Shown here: positions 9,862-36,463 of the stretch, piece after piece
How positions within the stretch are numbered: position 1 is the first letter of the stretch
Layout of the letters: each line of letters starts with the position of its first letter
Virus record (IMG/VR): IMGVR_UViG_3300037333_000202
Coordinates: 1 to 36,866 of that record
From: a virus
Reading direction: 5' to 3' (one strand)
Length of the DNA stretch: 36,866 nucleotides
The notes under the pieces: generated by a model
The model's database searches: none
The model's input: only the letters and a program-made list of their open reading frames with translations
What the model was told of the DNA's origin: nothing
Program-made: the position numbers and the translations under genes

Positions 9862-10351
9862 TAAAGCTTACCTCCGTACTATTTTTAAATTTAATTGATA
9901 CATTAACACTTCCCTGATCTGCATCTACATCAAGAAGAGTTATCTCCAATGGGTCAAAGTCTATATCCCACAACTCTAAATTTTCATTAAAAAAGGACTC
10001 ATATAAATACTTTTTTAATTCAATTTTCCATGTAAAATCCATGCTTCTATCGATAAGCTCATGGATTCTGCTACCAAAATGTGGCAACATAACCCTAGAG
10101 CCAAGAGGAGTAAAAACAATCCTATTGAAACGACTTACCGTACTACTATTATTTTTTTTAGCTTCATTTGCAGTAAAGCCTTTCTTTAAAATATTAATGC
10201 TGTTTTGAACATTAGCAAGAATGGAATCTATATAGGCTTCTCTTAATATGTCACTACTTTTTTGCGTATCGGCATAAAGAGAGTCAATATAAGCTCTACT
10301 CTCTTCATGTGAAGCTGAGATAAGTTCTACAATTCCTTCTGCTAATGCCAT
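9854..10351 (-). CDS. W: Baseplate wedge protein gpW/gp25-like with coiled-coil N-terminal extension
   Basis: Residues about 75-165 form the gpW/gp25 lysozyme-like wedge domain (RIVFTPLGSRVMLPHFGSRIHELIDRSMDFTWKIELKKYLYESFFNENLELWDIDFDPLEI). The first 70 residues are an added helical segment with a repeat-like pattern (SRAYIDSLYADTQKSSDILREAYIDSILANVQNS). The usual family length is about 110-130, so the extension is unusual. It resembles the helical protein encoded just upstream and may have come from it. Confidence 0.92.
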   Translation of the reverse strand: MALAEGIVELISASHEESRAYIDSLYADTQKSSDILREAYIDSILANVQNSINILKKGFTANEAKKNNSSTVSRFNRIVFTPLGSRVMLPHFGSRIHELIDRSMDFTWKIELKKYLYESFFNENLELWDIDFDPLEITLLDVDADQGSVNVSIKFKNSTEVSFNV

Positions 10352-16715: not shown

Positions 16716-16956
16716 AGCTCTTCTCCTAAAAATAATTTAAATATGCTGTATTTTAATATTTTTAAAAGAATAGATTAAGAGAGGTATTTTTTATGTAGAG
16801 TGTTTTTATGTAGATTTTATTAAGAGAGTCTATATTCTATAGAGAGGATAAGGGGGGGGGTTATACTAAGGGTCGAGGAGAACACCCCTTATTGAATAAA
16901 ACCATCTCTAAAGGTGTTAAACTGTGGGGTGCGATTGTTGTCGTACAGAATGCTTA
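16716..16956. other. 241-base gap with a G9 tract and complementary CACCCC/GGGGTG elements
   Basis: No open frame is supported. Nine G at 16852-16860 form a slippage-prone tract in the leader of the gpW gene. CACCCC (16883-16888) can pair with GGGGTG (16926-16931), and AACACC overlaps it and can pair with GGTGTT (16913-16918), so two hairpins compete. GGGGTGCGATTG at 16926 resembles the palindrome at 18940-18959. Confidence 0.5.
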
Positions 16957-17232
16957 TTACCCCTCTCCTCTCAAAAACACCAATATCTCTTCTACATGCT
17001 TAAGTTTTTTTTGAGCATCAAGTAAATCCTCATCCATCTTTGTCCACTCTTGGGCTGTAAAATCTTCATCATGAATCATCTCTGATTTAAGTTCAGATTC
17101 AAGCCATATAAGCTCTCTTTTTTTGCTTTCAAAACTAAATGCAAGGCTCTTTTTTCTTTGGTTTAGCATTACTTGTTCAACTCTTAAATTTTCGTAAGAC
17201 TCTAGTATTTTAAGCATCTTAAACCACCTCAA
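16957..17232 (-). CDS. Small coiled-coil protein of the regulatory cassette, unknown
   Basis: The 91-residue protein is largely one charged coiled coil (ESYENLRVEQVMLNQRKKSLAFSFESKKRELIWLESELKSE ... DLLDAQKKLKHVEEILVFLRG). No family was recognised. It overlaps the antirepressor-like gene by 14 bases and is probably co-translated with it. Met6 is another possible start. Confidence 0.72.
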   Translation of the reverse strand: MRWFKMLKILESYENLRVEQVMLNQRKKSLAFSFESKKRELIWLESELKSEMIHDEDFTAQEWTKMDEDLLDAQKKLKHVEEILVFLRGEG

Positions 17233-17926
17233 CTTTCAAACTTCTAGCATTCTCTTGTGTAGCCATTTCAATAATCTGACACTCACGAATAAACTCGCCA
17301 ATTTTACTATAAATCGTTGGGTTATTCAAGAACTGCGACTGTAGTTCTATGAGTTTATCTTTAATACCCATCATAGCAGAGGTTTTAAACACCTGTACCC
17401 CTGCCATGTGGCTAAAGTGTTCTTTTAGCTCATAGAGTTCATTTGCTCGGTCATTAAGTCTTTTGATTTCTGCCTTATAAGGTTCAAGGTCAACAGCAGG
17501 AGCAGGAAGAGCCAAGGTAGCGTTTTCAGCAATAAGCGTTTGAATGTTCTGCTCTTGGAGTTCAATTTTTTTGATGTGTTGTGAAAGTTGAGATTTTAAA
17601 CCTCTAATAATAGCGTGGGGGTTTTTACCGTCGATAAGATAAGTTGGTGCTTTCGTAATGTAATCCTCTGCCCAATCTCTGAACTGTCTAGCTTTTTTAG
17701 ATTTAACAAAAAAACCCAGTCTAACTACACCTTTTTGAGTCCACATTACTTTTGGTAACTTTTTATTGTTGTATTCAAGAATAAAATGCTTACCCTCTTT
17801 AAAGTCATCTTTATTGTTTGACTTTTGACTTCTAATTGCACTTTCACTAACACCATAGCCAAGAGCAACATCTTTTGTTGAAAGAAGAAAACCGAAGTTT
17901 TCATTTTCTATTACAGCTAACTGCAT
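17219..17926 (-). CDS. Antirepressor-like DNA-binding protein (BRO-N/Rha-like)
   Basis: The 235-residue protein has an N-terminal domain STKDVALGYGVSESAIRSQKSNNKDDFKEGKHFILEYNNKKLPKVMWTQKGVVRLGFFVKSKKARQFRDWAEDYI (residues 16-90). The ending, KARQFRDWAEDYI, is the hallmark pattern of BRO-N and related phage antirepressors. A coiled coil (105-170) and a helical C-terminus follow. AGGAG precedes ATG 17926. It is driven by a TTGACA-17-TATAAT promoter that carries an operator in its spacer (17966-17994). A regulatory role is likely; the target is unknown. Confidence 0.75.
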   Translation of the reverse strand: MQLAVIENENFGFLLSTKDVALGYGVSESAIRSQKSNNKDDFKEGKHFILEYNNKKLPKVMWTQKGVVRLGFFVKSKKARQFRDWAEDYITKAPTYLIDGKNPHAIIRGLKSQLSQHIKKIELQEQNIQTLIAENATLALPAPAVDLEPYKAEIKRLNDRANELYELKEHFSHMAGVQVFKTSAMMGIKDKLIELQSQFLNNPTIYSKIGEFIRECQIIEMATQENARSLKVEVV

Positions 17927-22104: not shown

Positions 22105-23175
22105 CTACTTACTCTCTTTGTATAATTTTTTCACAAACTCCTCTCCAGCATCAGGCATGAGGTGAGCATATCGCAAAGTCATCTTAATGTCAGCATGGTT
22201 CATAAGCTTTTGCATCTTGTCAAGAGGAGTGTTGTTAAGTGCTAAGTGAGAAGCATAAGTATGCCGAAGAGTGTGCATTCTTACTCTTCGCTTATCTTTC
22301 GGGCTTAATCCTTTATTGAACAATCTATCAAGTACTTTTTTAAACGCATTATAAAAAGTATGATAAGAAGTTCCTCCACATAAAATATCTTCATCAAAAT
22401 CTATAAAAGCATCATATATTTTTTTATTTATAGGGTTTGTATAGAAAGAACCTCTTTTAATGTCCTCTATATTTATATTCATATTTTTAAAGTCTATATC
22501 TCTTTTTTGTATCCGTAGAATGCTTGAAGCTCTTGCACCTACCCCGAGAGCAAGTATGACAAAATTGTAAAAATATTTATTATCTTTAACCGTTTTTTCT
22601 AACAAAGCAATCTCTTCCATGCTTAGAAATCTAGTTCTTGTATTATCAACTTTCAATTTTTTTAAATCCTTAAATGGAGAATATTCGATAATTCCCTTTT
22701 TTACTCCAAAATTAACTATTGCAGTCAAGATTCCAACAATATCATTGTTGTACGCATCACTTAACTTTTTATCTTTTAACTTTTTTTGTAGCTTTGTAAC
22801 GTCTATGTCTTTTAGACTCATCACGATTCTCTTATCGAGATACGAAAGATGCTTATTGTACTTTTGCTCTGTTTTCTTCCAGGAGCGATTATGAAGCTCT
22901 GCCCAATCAAAATACTCTGCTGCCAATTCTCCAACTTGAACCATGTCGCTATGAACACCTGTACCGTACTTTGCTTTATCAATCAATTTTGCTCTTTGCT
23001 CAAAAGCTCTTTTTTCTGTCCAACCATTTGATTTTTTTCCAATAGGTTTTAGAAATTTTTTACCAGCAACTTTATAGGAGACATAAAAAGTTATCTCTTT
23101 GTTCTCACCATGATATAGCTTTACTTTCGCACCATACTTTTTAGAGTTTGTCCACTTGGGTTTTTTTACCCCCAC
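22105..23175 (-). CDS. Tyrosine recombinase inside the late cluster
   Basis: The 356-residue protein has all catalytic residues of the family: Arg215 (GVGARASSIL), Lys240, His301-x-x-Arg304-His305 (HTLRHTYASH), His327 (MNHADI) and Tyr336 (LRYAHL). Residues 75-175 form the SAM-like core-binding domain. GTG at 23175 is the start, with AGGGG 6 bases upstream. It is far from either attachment site and lies between lysis and packaging genes. Alternatives to a second integrase are a resolvase of multimers or an inversion enzyme; no inverted cassette is evident. Confidence 0.9.
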   Translation of the reverse strand: MGVKKPKWTNSKKYGAKVKLYHGENKEITFYVSYKVAGKKFLKPIGKKSNGWTEKRAFEQRAKLIDKAKYGTGVHSDMVQVGELAAEYFDWAELHNRSWKKTEQKYNKHLSYLDKRIVMSLKDIDVTKLQKKLKDKKLSDAYNNDIVGILTAIVNFGVKKGIIEYSPFKDLKKLKVDNTRTRFLSMEEIALLEKTVKDNKYFYNFVILALGVGARASSILRIQKRDIDFKNMNINIEDIKRGSFYTNPINKKIYDAFIDFDEDILCGGTSYHTFYNAFKKVLDRLFNKGLSPKDKRRVRMHTLRHTYASHLALNNTPLDKMQKLMNHADIKMTLRYAHLMPDAGEEFVKKLYKESK

Positions 23176-25413: not shown

Positions 25414-25527
25414 TTTTTTCCTTAAATAAATAATATTTTTAAGATATAATATTTATTTTTTAGAAAAAAGATAAGAGAGAATTTATAAATATAGATATAA
25501 AATCTACATAAACAGAGGAGAATTATA

Positions 25528-25728
25528 ATGAAAGAAGAGGTTTTACCAGAAATAATAAAAAGAAAAGATACTAAAAGTCTTTACATCTCAGAATACACGC
25601 TTTTTTATCTTATGCAAAAAGCAAAAGAGTTCAATAGTGTTGTTGGGGCTACGCTTGACAAGATTATACTTGCTCAGCCTGACTTTAAAGACACTATAAA
25701 CAGACACCTAGAAGAGAGTAAGCTTTAG
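25528..25728 (+). CDS. Small ribbon-helix-helix-like protein
   Basis: The 66-residue protein has a short strand KSLYIS (16-21) followed by helix EYTLFYLMQKAKEFN and a second helix SVVGATLDKIILAQ, as in ribbon-helix-helix DNA-binding proteins. GAGGAG precedes ATG 25528. A TATAAT at 25445-25450 with TTAAAT 17 bases upstream may be its promoter. Its stop (25728) abuts the end of the convergent G-tract gene (25729) within a perfect hairpin. An array-binding role is speculative. Confidence 0.72.
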   Translation: MKEEVLPEIIKRKDTKSLYISEYTLFYLMQKAKEFNSVVGATLDKIILAQPDFKDTINRHLEESKL

Positions 25729-25742
25729 TTAGCTTACTCTCT
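25713..25742. terminator. Bidirectional hairpin between convergent genes
   Basis: AGAGAGTAAGCT (25713-25724), loop TTAGTT, AGCTTACTCTCT (25731-25742): a perfect 12-bp stem. Both stop codons (TAG 25726-25728 on plus; TAA 25731-25729 on minus) lie in the loop region. It supports the frame-corrected end of the minus-strand gene. Confidence 0.75.
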
Positions 25743-26056
25743 CTATTATATCTCTATACTTCTTTGCAGTATTGAAGCTTACTTTTGCCTCTTTTGCAAC
25801 AGAGTAAACAGTTACTTCCCCCCCCCATAAATCTTAAAATATTAATAGCACTTTCTATCTTTCTCTTTGCATTGTTTTCTCTTGTTTGGGTTGCTTTCTT
25901 GGTCGCTTTTAGCTTTTTTGTTGATGTAGCTTTAAATTTTTCAATCTCTATCTTTTCTATTAAATCAGAAACAACTTTAAAAGTATAACTCCCCTGGTAA
26001 GCAGACTGAATCTTTTTAAGAGCCAAGTACTCATCTTCTGTTATGACTACTCTCAC
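25729..26056 (-). pseudogene. Winged-helix regulator interrupted or phase-varied at a G9 tract
   Basis: GTG at 26056 overlaps the previous stop (TAGTG). Residues 1-76 read normally (MRVVITEDEYLALKKIQ... INILRF). At the G9 tract (25826-25818) the current frame continues as MGGGSNCLLCCKRGKSKLQYCKEV and stops at 25754. With eight G the frame gives MGGEVTVYSVAKEAKVSFNTAKKYRDIIERVS, a good helix-turn-helix, and ends at 25729, exactly against the convergent gene, for 108 residues in total. Seven G would stop at once. Poly-G tracts are known slippage switches in Campylobacterota, so phase variation is as likely as a dead gene or a base-call error. Confidence 0.75.
25818..25826 (-). repeat. G9 homopolymer in coding sequence
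   Basis: Nine C on the plus strand (nine G in the mRNA) between codons for RFM and the alternative C-termini. G8 restores the helix-turn-helix frame, G9 gives a Cys-rich tail and G7 or G10 gives an immediate stop. Confidence 0.9.
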
Positions 26057-26868
26057 TACAGTACCCTACCACTCTTCTTAAAATTCTCAAGCATCAGCTT
26101 CCAAACTCTGTTATTGTACTCGTCTGTACAGTAAGCTCCACCCTCTTTAAAAACAGGGTACCCGAACTGATTGATAACCATGGGGTAAATAACTCCTTGG
26201 TTAGCTATATCTTTCTTTGTAAATCTTATGCTCTTACGATCTTCATCGCTCATCTGCTTTAAAAAGAGTCGCATCTCTTCAATTGTAGTCGGATTTGTTA
26301 CTTTTTTCTCTTTTTGTTTTGTAGGTCTTTTAATGTTCCTTAGCCATTTGTTCATAAACCTCTCTAGTGCAGGTTCCCACTTTGATACCCTCTTCCACTC
26401 GGTCTCTTCTTGCTTAAGCCAAAAATCTTCAGCTATCTCTATGGCTAACTCTTTAGAAATGCTTTTCTCTTCCCCTATCTTTACGGCTGCTGCTTTTACA
26501 TCGTTTTGACTTGGGTCCCCCTTTTTTGAACTTTTTGTGTCTTTCCCAAACTCTTTTTCATCTTTCAATTTTTTAGGAATTTTACGCTGGTTAAGGCTTA
26601 GAGCATACTTGAACTCTTTGCCAATTTTTAGCTGGAACTTCTTATTTTGTCTTATGAAGCCTCTTTTTATTAGACTTGCGACAATCTTCTTCATTCGGTC
26701 ATAAGAGAGCTTGTGATGCGAAGCCAGTTCGGCTCTGGTCACATCAGAGTACTCGCCATCTTCAAGCAGTCTACAAGAAAACTCTATATCTTCGCAAACC
26801 ATCCACTCTACAGGGTTTAAACCTACTGCATCCATTGCATCGTAATCTAAGTTATAGTAACGTTTCAT
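26056..26868 (-). CDS. Winged-helix protein, probable replication initiator or helicase loader
   Basis: The 270-residue protein starts with NPVEWMVCEDIEFSCRLLEDGEYSDVTRAELASHHKLSYDRMKKIVASLIKRGFIRQNKKF (18-78), a helix-turn-helix with wing like those of phage O/DnaD-type replication proteins. A basic disordered linker (93-130) and a helical domain (137-180, WLKQEETEWKRVSKWEPALERFMNKWLRNI) follow; the latter resembles the end domain of DnaT/DnaD-like proteins. Early position behind the Cro-like gene fits a replication role. ATGA overlap with the previous gene shows coupling. Confidence 0.75.
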   Translation of the reverse strand: MKRYYNLDYDAMDAVGLNPVEWMVCEDIEFSCRLLEDGEYSDVTRAELASHHKLSYDRMKKIVASLIKRGFIRQNKKFQLKIGKEFKYALSLNQRKIPKKLKDEKEFGKDTKSSKKGDPSQNDVKAAAVKIGEEKSISKELAIEIAEDFWLKQEETEWKRVSKWEPALERFMNKWLRNIKRPTKQKEKKVTNPTTIEEMRLFLKQMSDEDRKSIRFTKKDIANQGVIYPMVINQFGYPVFKEGGAYCTDEYNNRVWKLMLENFKKSGRVL

Positions 26869-27131
26869 ACTAATCCCCCTAACCCTACTTTTTCAAACAG
26901 CTCTGGCAACATACTCTCATACCAACGAACATTGTTTACGTTATGGTAGCTTGCAATATTGCGACCATACCTGGTATCTAGCAAGTCCCAAAAAGGCTTA
27001 AATAGTTTTGGGTTCTTTTTGCTAGGTCGCCCTCTTTTGTTTAAAATTTTATTTTTATAAAGCAGTTCATTGAACGCTTTTGCACTAAGCCCAGCTTTAG
27101 CTGCTGCTTGAGTTGAAGTAAGTAGTCGCAT
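26865..27131 (-). CDS. DNA-binding protein of the early leftward operon
   Basis: From ATG 27131 (AAGGAG 5 bases before) the protein is 88 residues: MRLLTSTQAAAKAGLSAKAFNELLYKNKILNKRGRPSKKNPKLFKPFW... The stretch TSTQAAAKAGLSAKAFNELLYKNKI has the pattern of the KilAC/excisionase-like winged helix. It is the first gene after the long Cro leader. Its ribosome site abuts one arm of the interleaved repeats (27142-27150), so translation may be controlled there. The ATG three bases upstream is also possible; longer upstream extensions would run through the repeats and are unlikely. Confidence 0.75.
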   Translation of the reverse strand: MRLLTSTQAAAKAGLSAKAFNELLYKNKILNKRGRPSKKNPKLFKPFWDLLDTRYGRNIASYHNVNNVRWYESMLPELFEKVGLGGLV

Positions 27132-27141
27132 CATTTCTCCT

Positions 27142-27213
27142 TGGCATTGGACCATCTTGTAAAAGATAAGAGAAAGCAGCCAATGCCACTTAATCTGCAA
27201 TCTCTTACAAGAT
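27142..27213 (-). promoter_or_regulatory. Interleaved inverted repeats, possible mRNA pseudoknot at a ribosome site
   Basis: In mRNA order (minus): arm A ATCTTGTAAGAGAT (27213-27200), arm B TGGCATTGG (27188-27180), arm A' ATCTTTTACAAGAT (27167-27154), arm B' CCAATGCCA (27150-27142). A pairs A' (13 of 14) and B pairs B' (9 of 9), crossing each other. B' is contiguous with AGGAG. This is pseudoknot topology. It lies in the 5' leader of the gene at 27131. Confidence 0.65.
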
Positions 27214-27270
27214 AGTATTTTGTTCAAAAGAGAAAACACCAGGTATTTAACAGTTTTTAAGTCATGTTTT

Positions 27271-27351
27271 GTTAACATACACTGTTTAAACACGTTTAGT
27301 GTTAACTCTTGGCAAGGGTATGAAAGCTCTTCAAAAACTTCTTCATACCCT
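27271..27351. repeat. Two further inverted repeats in the 346-base leader
   Basis: GTTAACA (27271-27277) with TGTTAAC (27300-27306), and AGGGTATGAA (27315-27324) with TTCATACCCT (27342-27351), perfect 7- and 10-bp arms. They lie between the Cro-like gene and the next gene. With the hairpin at 27412 and the pseudoknot they fill the gene-free stretch 27132-27477. Confidence 0.6.
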
Positions 27352-27477: not shown

Positions 27478-27768
27478 CTACTCCTCCTCTGTAGCTTGTG
27501 ACAACTCATCATCTTTTAAAAAATCAGGATTTTCTTTTAGCCATTCATGAATATTTTTCCATGCTCTACATGGAAAAGCGTATTCCTCTTCAATGGCAAT
27601 AGCTTTTGTTAAGTCGGGTCGAGTTTTATGTTGCCATACTTTGTCAATCGTATTTTTATTACTGTATCCGATATTTTGCAACATTTTTTCAAAGCGTTTA
27701 CCTACTTCTGATTTACGAATTTTTGTTTTTTCTGCTCTTTTCATGTCGTATGGTAATATTTTTACCAT
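27478..27768 (-). CDS. Cro-like regulator
   Basis: The 96-residue basic protein is divergent from the S24 repressor, as Cro is from CI. EVGKRFEKMLQNIGYSNKNTIDKVWQHKTRPDLTKAIAIEEEYAFPCRAWKNI (21-73) fits a Cro/CI-type fold: the end, TKAIAIEEEYAFPCRAW, is like the A-x-RIE-x3-GIPxRxW pattern of small Xre-type repressors. Its ATG is inside operator O1 (27750-27768), so repressor binding should block this gene. Confidence 0.75.
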   Translation of the reverse strand: MVKILPYDMKRAEKTKIRKSEVGKRFEKMLQNIGYSNKNTIDKVWQHKTRPDLTKAIAIEEEYAFPCRAWKNIHEWLKENPDFLKDDELSQATEEE

Positions 27769-27803
27769 TTATCTAAACTTAAAAATAGTAAAAATACAAC
27801 CAT
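27750..27803. promoter_or_regulatory. Left operator module, oR-like (two 19-bp sites)
   Basis: O1 ATGGTAATATTTTTACCAT (27750-27768) is a perfect dyad ATGGTAA-5-TTACCAT. O2 ATAGTAAAAATACAACCAT (27785-27803) is a weaker version. Centres are 35 bp apart with a 16-base spacer. The module recurs inverted at 29928-29981. It lies between repressor and Cro-like genes. Confidence 0.85.
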
Positions 27804-27848: not shown

Positions 27849-28577
27849 ATGTTTGACCACAAGAATTTTTCAAAAATATTAAAAAAAAATAAAATCTCAT
27901 CACAAAAATTAAGTGACATCTTAAAAGACCATGGTGTTACACTGGGGAAAGACTCTGTAGATGCGTATAGAAAAGGAAATGTTCAGGCACCAAGATATGA
28001 TATATTAAGTCTGGTCGCATCTCTTTGCAATGCAAATGTTATTGATTTTTTTGAGAATCGTAATGAGATTAAGGCAGATATAGTAAAAAATGAACTAAAA
28101 AACAACCTAGAAGAGTACCTCCCTCTTCTCCCCTCAAAGCTCATTCCCCACACCATCAAACAAATAAAAGTAACCAAGGGGTACCCTTCTGTTGCAGAAC
28201 GAATTGTACAGGAAGACACAATGAACTATGCAACACAAATATTTATTGACAAAAGAATGGTGCTAACAGCTTACCAGGACAAAGAGCTAGAAGCCGTGGT
28301 AATGATAGGCGACTCCATGAGTCCTTATCTGCAAAACGATGACATCGCCATTTGGCACCCCACATCAGAACCTCTAGGTGATGGACGCTATGTCATCAAC
28401 ACCCCACACGGTTTAACGGTAAAAAAACTAAAATTTATGAGCGACGGCTCCATTTTACTTATAAGTGAAAACCCCGACTATAACACAAACGGCACCTACG
28501 ATGAGAAGTTTAGTAAAGATATTGCCGATACATTGGAGATTTACGGTTTAGTAGTGGGAAGAATTTTAAAGAGTTAA
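27849..28577 (+). CDS. Phage repressor with S24 peptidase domain
   Basis: The 242-residue protein has an N-terminal helix-turn-helix (ISSQKLSDILKDHGVTLGKDSVDAYRKGNVQAPRYDILSLVASL, 16-59) and a C-terminal LexA/CI-type S24 domain with Ser156 in MIGDSMSPYLQNDDIAIW and Lys192 in GLTVKKLKF as catalytic pair. It should hold the prophage silent by binding ATGGTAA-type operators and be cleaved or inactivated in the SOS response. No clear Ala-Gly or Cys-Gly cleavage site is visible in the linker, so induction may differ. It is the main lysogeny gene. Confidence 0.92.
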   Translation: MFDHKNFSKILKKNKISSQKLSDILKDHGVTLGKDSVDAYRKGNVQAPRYDILSLVASLCNANVIDFFENRNEIKADIVKNELKNNLEEYLPLLPSKLIPHTIKQIKVTKGYPSVAERIVQEDTMNYATQIFIDKRMVLTAYQDKELEAVVMIGDSMSPYLQNDDIAIWHPTSEPLGDGRYVINTPHGLTVKKLKFMSDGSILLISENPDYNTNGTYDEKFSKDIADTLEIYGLVVGRILKS

Positions 28578-29927: not shown

Positions 29928-29981
29928 ATGGTAATATATTTACTATTTTTAAGTTTAAATAAATGGTAAATATATTACCAT
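29928..29981. promoter_or_regulatory. Right operator module, oL-like inverted copy
   Basis: ATGGTAATATATTTACTAT (29928-29946) and ATGGTAAATATATTACCAT (29963-29981), 35 bp centre to centre, form the reverse-complement arrangement of the module at 27750-27803; the 16-base spacer matches at 15 of 16 positions. The copy also includes the start codons of a 15-codon reading frame (29963-30010, MVNILPLYQQNEKRF) like the Cro-like start MVKILP. It should put the rightward genes under the repressor. Confidence 0.85.
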
Positions 29982-35287: not shown

Positions 35288-36463
35288 ATGCCTTTGGTTA
35301 AAGCTTTAAAAGGGAAAAGCATTATGAAAAATAAACCAATATATTATGAAAATGGTGGAATAAAATTTACTATATATATTCAAAACAATAGATATTATTT
35401 AGACTTCTATAAGACAGACGGCACACGCATAAGAAAATCTACTAAAAAAATAGCAACAAAAGAAAACTTACGTTACATCAAGATGCAACTTATACCCGAC
35501 ATACTCATTCTGATGGGAGAAGAACCCACCACAAATTCAGAGAAAAAAGAGTACACGGTTGAGGAGTGGGCATTAATCCATTTCGATTTACAAGAAGGTA
35601 AAAATAGACCTCAAACTATTAAAAGAAAAAAGCAACATTTCTATAAACATATTTACCCAATCTTTGGCAAACGCCTTGTTAGCTCCATTGGTTACTTGGA
35701 TCTACAGCAATGGCAAACAGATATCTTAAAAAAAAACTATAAAATAGAGACCATTAGCACTTATAGAGCTGTATTCTTCGGCATTTTAGAACATGCAGTT
35801 AAAGCAGATATTATTCATAAAAACTATTTTATCTCTGTACCAAGCCCAAAAACATTTACTAATTTACCAAAAGAGCAGCAAAGAGAAAAACTAAATCCTT
35901 TCACAAATAAAGAGATAGAGCTTATGCTCAGTAATGCAGATGGCTATATGCACAACTTTATTAAATTAATGCTCTCTACTGGCATTCGACCAGGAGAGCT
36001 TATTGCACTTGAGTGGGAAAATATTGACTTCAAAAGAAGAGTCATAAAAATAACAAGCACTAGAAACCGAGCCATAGAAAACGACCCAAAAACAAAAAGC
36101 TCCAGCAGAGAAGTAGATATGCTACTAAATGCTAAAGAAGCTCTTGAGTCTCAGCTTGAGCTAACGAGAGAGGAGGAGAAGATTTTTATGAGTATGTTCC
36201 ATAAACCTTTTTATTCGCATGATATTATCGCCAAGCTCTTCAAAGAGCTACTTATTAAAATAGGAATAGAGCCAAGACCTCTTTATAATCTAAGGCATAC
36301 ATTCGCATCACAAGCAATTACCAAAGGGGTAAACATCTTGTGGGTAAGTCGAATGCTGGGACACAAAGATATAAGCGTCACGCTACAAGTCTACACTAAG
36401 TTTATTGTCGAAGACGATGAGCAAAGACTAAAAAATATAGAGAAACTCGATAAGATTTTATAA
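35288..36463 (+). CDS. int: Phage integrase (tyrosine recombinase) at attR
   Basis: The 391-residue protein has an Arm-binding-like N-terminus (ITFYIQNNRYYLDFYKTDGTRIRKST-type strands, 25-52), a core-binding domain (88-185) and a catalytic domain with Arg234 (STGIRPGEL), Lys270, Arg336-His337 (YNLRHTFASQ), His359 (MLGHKD) and Tyr369 (QVYTKF). The first His of HxxR is Tyr333, a variant seen in some integrases. It lies 277 bases from the attR core, so it is the natural enzyme for this insertion. ATG 35324 (MKNKPIYYENG) is a possible alternative start. Confidence 0.93.
   Translation: MPLVKALKGKSIMKNKPIYYENGGIKFTIYIQNNRYYLDFYKTDGTRIRKSTKKIATKENLRYIKMQLIPDILILMGEEPTTNSEKKEYTVEEWALIHFDLQEGKNRPQTIKRKKQHFYKHIYPIFGKRLVSSIGYLDLQQWQTDILKKNYKIETISTYRAVFFGILEHAVKADIIHKNYFISVPSPKTFTNLPKEQQREKLNPFTNKEIELMLSNADGYMHNFIKLMLSTGIRPGELIALEWENIDFKRRVIKITSTRNRAIENDPKTKSSSREVDMLLNAKEALESQLELTREEEKIFMSMFHKPFYSHDIIAKLFKELLIKIGIEPRPLYNLRHTFASQAITKGVNILWVSRMLGHKDISVTLQVYTKFIVEDDEQRLKNIEKLDKIL

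Follow-up and report, generated by a model that had tools for sequence, protein, structure and literature searches.

The sequence analysed here (the window) comprises the whole of an IMG/VR virus record, 36,866 bases long and with a GC content of about 35%. Among its genes are those for a terminase of the GpA type, a CI/LexA-like repressor and a pair of tyrosine recombinases. These last are encoded at 22105-23175 (-) and 35288-36463 (+), and both have counterparts in record G002 (46,056 bases), which is the closest long relative, with a terminase 82% identical to that of the window and many structural and lysis genes in common. No related terminase was found in genome_contigs, and Rfam and ARAGORN searches gave nothing in the window. 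The host is probably related to Campylobacter, an assignment to the Campylobacterota that is based on a Hydrogenimonas homologue of the gene studied here and on a cro-side gene in common with the Nitratiruptor phage NrS-4.

The gene under study is the last of a minus-strand series of ORFs leading away from the repressor (27478-27768, 26865-27293, 26056-26868 and 25732-26056) which, by position, is the place of the early lytic operon (Table 1). The 270-aa ORF upstream stops where this gene starts, the two codons overlapping (TAGTG). That ORF occupies the position of a probable replication gene in related phages, and no relatives of it were found at a useful level in viral_contigs, phages or plasmids. 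In G002 the gene is replaced by an unrelated 175-aa ORF and the small convergent ORF is kept. Near the repressor, two inverted copies of a 24-bp sequence, identical at 23 of the 24 positions, were observed beside the repressor (27769-27792) and at a distance of 2 kb (29939-29962), and 9877-9893 is a partial copy; these sequences are possibly repressor operators. Additionally, one of the three A9 runs of the window (27881-27889, +) lies about 30 bases into the repressor ORF and is a possible further slippage site in the decision circuit.

Table 1. Features in and around the tract-interrupted gene, with positions in the window.
Feature	Position	Strand	Remarks
Convergent 66-aa ORF	25528..25728	+	Conserved in related phage G002 (L083:4713-4922, 29% identity)
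Perfect inverted repeat, 12 bp, 6-base loop, terminator-like	25713..25742		Contains both convergent stop codons
Tract-interrupted gene, small DNA-binding protein, C-terminal helix-turn-helix (predicted)	25732..26056	-	108 codons, G8 frame
ORF as assembled (G9)	25754..26056	-	100 aa, GTG start; helix-turn-helix swapped for unrelated 20-residue tail
G9 homopolymer (C9 on +)	25818..25826	-	Codons 77-80; turn preceding second helix of the helix-turn-helix (predicted)
270-aa ORF, candidate replication initiator	26056..26868	-	Weak winged-helix/DnaD_N-like similarity
First ORF of same-strand early operon, cro position	27478..27768	-	Similar to NrS-4 gene 23, adjoining NrS-4 repressor
CI/LexA-like repressor (Peptidase_S24)	27849..28577	+	Divergent from early operon

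Read directly from the sequence, a run of nine G on the coding strand throws the 108-codon gene out of frame past residue 76, as the original prediction had stated. The assembled ORF ends in a 20-residue tail, SNCLLCCKRGKSKLQYCKEV, with four cysteines. With one G fewer (the G8 frame) the product has 108 residues and the stop codon falls at 25732-25734, whereas with one G more (10 G) the protein terminates one residue past the tract (downstream frame 0). Thus 76 residues are constant and the codons of the tract are followed by 28, 20 or 1 residues depending on the frame. The G8-frame stop is three bases from that of the convergent ORF. The predicted convergence therefore stands, and the gene ends at 25732 rather than flush with its neighbour at 25729. 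Similarly, the terminator that had been called perfect is a perfect 12-bp repeat, but G-C pairs make up only 5 of the 12 and the scan called it terminator-like on the plus strand only. On each of the two strands it folds far better than shuffled sequences do (z -4.7 and -3.9).

The G8 frame is almost certainly the real frame of the gene, because three independent lines of evidence agree: codon usage, a frame open as far as the convergent stops, and a homologue that matches both halves of the protein. A codon score trained on 26 other ORFs of the window gave +9.23 upstream of the tract; downstream of it the G8 frame scored +4.29, the G9 frame -9.94 and the third frame -6.25. For true-frame windows (n=1439) the median was 5.03 and the first percentile -2.97, the value of +4.29 falling between the 25th percentile and the median. 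The G8 frame is open for 28 codons past the tract, and off-frame windows of that length were open in 664 of 14,440 cases.

The homologue was obtained by a tblastn search with the G8 protein, which gave one match among 72,556 plasmid records, the hypothetical protein WP_286338114.1 (131 aa) of the Hydrogenimonas cancrithermarum plasmid pISO32_2. The alignment, with 40% identity over 77 residues, is gapless across the tract. Each half was also matched alone, the part before the tract with an E value of 1.9e-9 and the G8 part after it with 4.1e-9 (56% identity over 25 residues), and in both cases none of 2000 shuffles did as well. The G9 tail had no match with the plasmid protein (1441 of 2000 shuffles were as good). 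The two proteins have in common the C-terminal helix-turn-helix and the basic helix preceding it, and both genes are near a replication gene, that of the plasmid being about 600 bases upstream of a Rep3-type initiator gene. However, WP_286338114.1 differs in its N-terminus and is always in frame, since its gene has ordinary codons at the tract position and no G/C run above 3. The comparison of tract lengths among homologues proposed as a check therefore met no tract at the site in the nearest of them, and the tract, being absent from the sole homologue, is not a conserved property of the family. This absence does not exclude phase variation, because non-phase-variable homologues of switching genes have been reported (PMC6321876, in the part consulted).

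Other searches for relatives of the gene were negative. None was found in viral_contigs by the N-terminal part, by the two-sequence alignment or by the C-terminal part, nor in genome_contigs, in phages (tblastn, E <= 1) or in the three nearest phage records. An exact search of viral_contigs for 24 bases at the tract end also gave nothing, and no second copy of the locus appeared in any of these collections. Sequence searches of Pfam, PHROGs, NCBIfam and PDB gave only weak, scattered matches.

The 108-residue form was modelled by single-sequence AlphaFold2. One of the five models reached a mean pLDDT of 78.6, with about 90 for residues 61 to 100, the others having means of 45-56. In this model a long helix extends to residue 76 and is followed by helices at 83-90, 94-99 and 101-107, then the end of the chain; there are no strands, and the tract encodes the predicted turn between the long helix and the second helix of the helix-turn-helix. 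Most of the 50 structural matches listed were TetR-type regulators, aligned within residues 48-108; the best of them (Z 7.7, rmsd 2.5 over 56 residues) is below the level that the tool regards as clear. Foldseek gave no match at E <= 0.001, and no TetR family profile was found in Pfam or NCBIfam (both at E <= 1). In the TetR family the three-helix helix-turn-helix is N-terminal, whereas in the phage protein it is C-terminal. Because the modelled part consists of helices without strands and the listed matches are mostly of TetR type, we call the part predicted to be lost a TetR-like three-helix helix-turn-helix rather than a winged helix. The winged helix of the original prediction is not supported by the model, in which three short helices are seen and no beta-hairpin wing follows the recognition helix. 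The predicted 108-residue product with a helix-turn-helix end was borne out by codon usage, open frame, homologue and modelled structure. According to the model, the G9 form would keep the first 76 residues and lose the recognition helix.

Two ways in which the G9 form might gain a function of its own were considered and rejected. The tail is indeed cysteine-rich and unrelated to the G8 end, as had been claimed, but its off-frame codon usage (-9.94) and lack of similarity to the homologue do not allow it to be regarded as a second functional end. A separate restart of the helix-turn-helix was discarded since there is a stop a few codons before the tract in the frame that carries it; inspection by eye found no ATG, GTG or TTG between that stop and the helix-turn-helix.

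The window has more long G runs than chance predicts. Two G/C runs of at least nine are present, whereas Markov models of order 1, 2 and 3 give expectations of 0.017, 0.017 and 0.10, respectively (60 simulations per order), and after these two the longest G or C run in its 36,866 bases is 6. In the fetched loci, two runs of at least eight were counted in 851,429 bases; this count covers 83 of 86 loci, with L085, L086 and L002 (whose record is that of L082-L084) set aside, and the 83 are partly redundant, several being contigs with closely related phages. No G/C run of at least seven was present in the Nitratiruptor phages NrS-2, NrS-3 and NrS-4 or in records G001, G002 and G003.

The second G9 run of the window (16852-16860, +) is intergenic, between 16715 and 16957, and on the plus strand it falls between TAGAGA and TATACT, a promoter-like pair spaced by 16 bases. 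The promoter scan as a whole was not above chance (4 found, 3.1 expected). A plus transcript from this pair would be antisense to an ORF at 17219-17926 with weak similarity to Bro-N/ORF6N. An exact 16-bp repeat, TTTATGTAGATTTTAT, occurs upstream of this run (16805-16820, +) and again at 25497-25512 (-), upstream of a putative holin ORF (25413, -), so labelled by position only. With up to three mismatches it has 7 sites, against 2.3 expected, and it may be a promoter or operator common to the two places.

In bacteria, poly-G contingency loci are known mainly in genes for surface structures. The phage tract has three of the properties by which such loci are recognized: a run of at least 7-8 G/C inside an ORF with G on the coding strand (here at residues 77-80 of 108), longer than chance predicts (2 runs against 0.017-0.10), whose change in length toggles between an intact and a non-intact product while the downstream frame is still coding, as judged by the codon score and the homologue. 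It also has those of C-terminal phase variation, namely a tract late in the ORF, a constant N-terminal part and alternative ends. Eight Helicobacter canadensis genes have been proposed to vary in this way, with only the end of the protein altered by a late tract (PMC2823697, in part). There, as here, a late homopolymeric tract leaves an N-terminal part that is always made and a C-terminus dependent on tract length; however, those genes are bacterial, and the present one is phage-borne with a DNA-binding domain, as predicted, for its variable end. The loci of the Campylobacter phasome resemble it in having coding-strand poly-G, G9 as the commonest length and frame-switching inside the ORF, although they are bacterial genes with tract lengths seen to vary and the phage tract is known from one assembled copy (PMC6321876, in part). 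In length, strand and late position the tract fits known Campylobacter and Helicobacter loci, C-terminal phase variation included. Epsilonproteobacteria are described as lacking several mismatch-repair genes (PMC2147049, in part). The same source, in that part, reports that G:C tracts are missing from Arcobacter butzleri and from some further members of the group, so switching cannot be predicted from the phylum alone. The part consulted of another source describes tracts in bacterial genes and not in prophage genes (PMC4004267). No phage regulator switched by a poly-G tract was found in the titles and abstract openings of the open-licence PMC papers that were searched.

A comparable case was found in another phage, L067, with 33% GC and a terminase (TerL) 40% identical to that of the window. 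In its gene for a C5 cytosine methyltransferase (1709-2702; PF00145, E 3e-28), positions 1790-1799 form a G10 run. The frame from the GTG at 1709 stops soon past the assembled tract, and the remainder of the enzyme is open in another frame (1788-2702), so that a change of one G in the assembled tract would join the two frames, as one G fewer does in the window. Its tract, which presumably encodes the glycines of methyltransferase motif I, is near the N-terminus, unlike that of the window gene, and an OFF state would lose nearly the whole enzyme. On its sequence this methyltransferase is a candidate phase-variable phage gene; a search for its relatives in viral_contigs returned the locus itself only. 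In two phages of the wider group, therefore, a long G run puts a gene off frame by one G. Separately, a 55%-GC phage has a Dam-type adenine methyltransferase gene (PF05869; L077:2114-2572) with an in-frame G11 at 2293-2303.

On the strength of one out-of-frame copy alone, a switch cannot be distinguished from a lesion or an error. The best explanation of the data is nonetheless phase variation, followed in order by a miscount, a one-off lesion and programmed recoding. A miscount in assembly or base calling, by which the tract would be fixed in frame in the true phage and the contig one G too long, is unlikely. It agrees with the intact downstream frame and its normal codons, as expected of a simply whole gene, and with the nature of the record, an IMG/VR consensus without reads. 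However, to judge from the second G9 of the contig and the G10 of the related phage, genomes of this kind do contain genuine long G runs, and a run of 8 G would still be prone to slip by the published threshold (PMC6321876, in part). We placed next, also as unlikely, an inactivating slip that occurred once in a dispensable or departing gene and does not switch back. The absence of the tract from the plasmid homologue and of the gene from G002 indicates that the gene is not essential to the phage lineage, but the 28 downstream codons are undecayed, with no stop, a typical codon score and 56% identity over 25 residues. The synthesis of a long and a short protein from one genome, through slippage of RNA polymerase, for which homopolymers are slippery too, or through ribosomal frameshifting, as used by phage tail chaperone genes, is quite improbable, since the shift needed is +1, with one base skipped, after a -1 shift the protein would stop within one more residue, and the usual sites of transcriptional slippage are runs of A or T (PMC3711429, in part).

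We therefore favour phase variation, the tract probably being a reversible, slipped-strand poly-G contingency site in a small phage gene, as far as can be judged from the sequence. The assembled copy is best read as the OFF phase of a gene whose DNA-binding half is removed or restored by tract length. The real frame is kept across the tract only with lengths such as 8 G; with nine, as in the assembly, 76 residues are retained and the C-terminal helix-turn-helix is replaced by junk, and with ten the protein would end at once. In a host whose mismatch repair is weak, slipped-strand mispairing at replication would frequently alter the length, and the phage population may consist of ON genomes, giving the whole DNA-binding protein, and OFF genomes, giving only its helical N-terminal part. 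Given that the gene follows a likely replication gene in the cro-side operon, a replication accessory is as likely a product as a regulator of the early operon acting in the decision, and both roles are plausible. In either case switching may tune the lytic programme, and the bet-hedging between lysis and lysogeny put forward in the original prediction is a hypothesis drawn from the position of the gene.

More tentatively, and with considerable doubt, temperate phages of Campylobacterota may carry a poly-G phasome of their own, in which reversible slippage would diversify the phage genomes before infection. The slipping sites would be a DNA-binding regulator and perhaps a promoter in the window, and a DNA methyltransferase in L067, and one burst would then contain particles with different regulatory and methylation programmes. 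If the switch in the present gene is confirmed, phages would vary their own regulation or replication by localized hypermutation, which would be a genetic route to mixed outcomes and not one due to expression noise.
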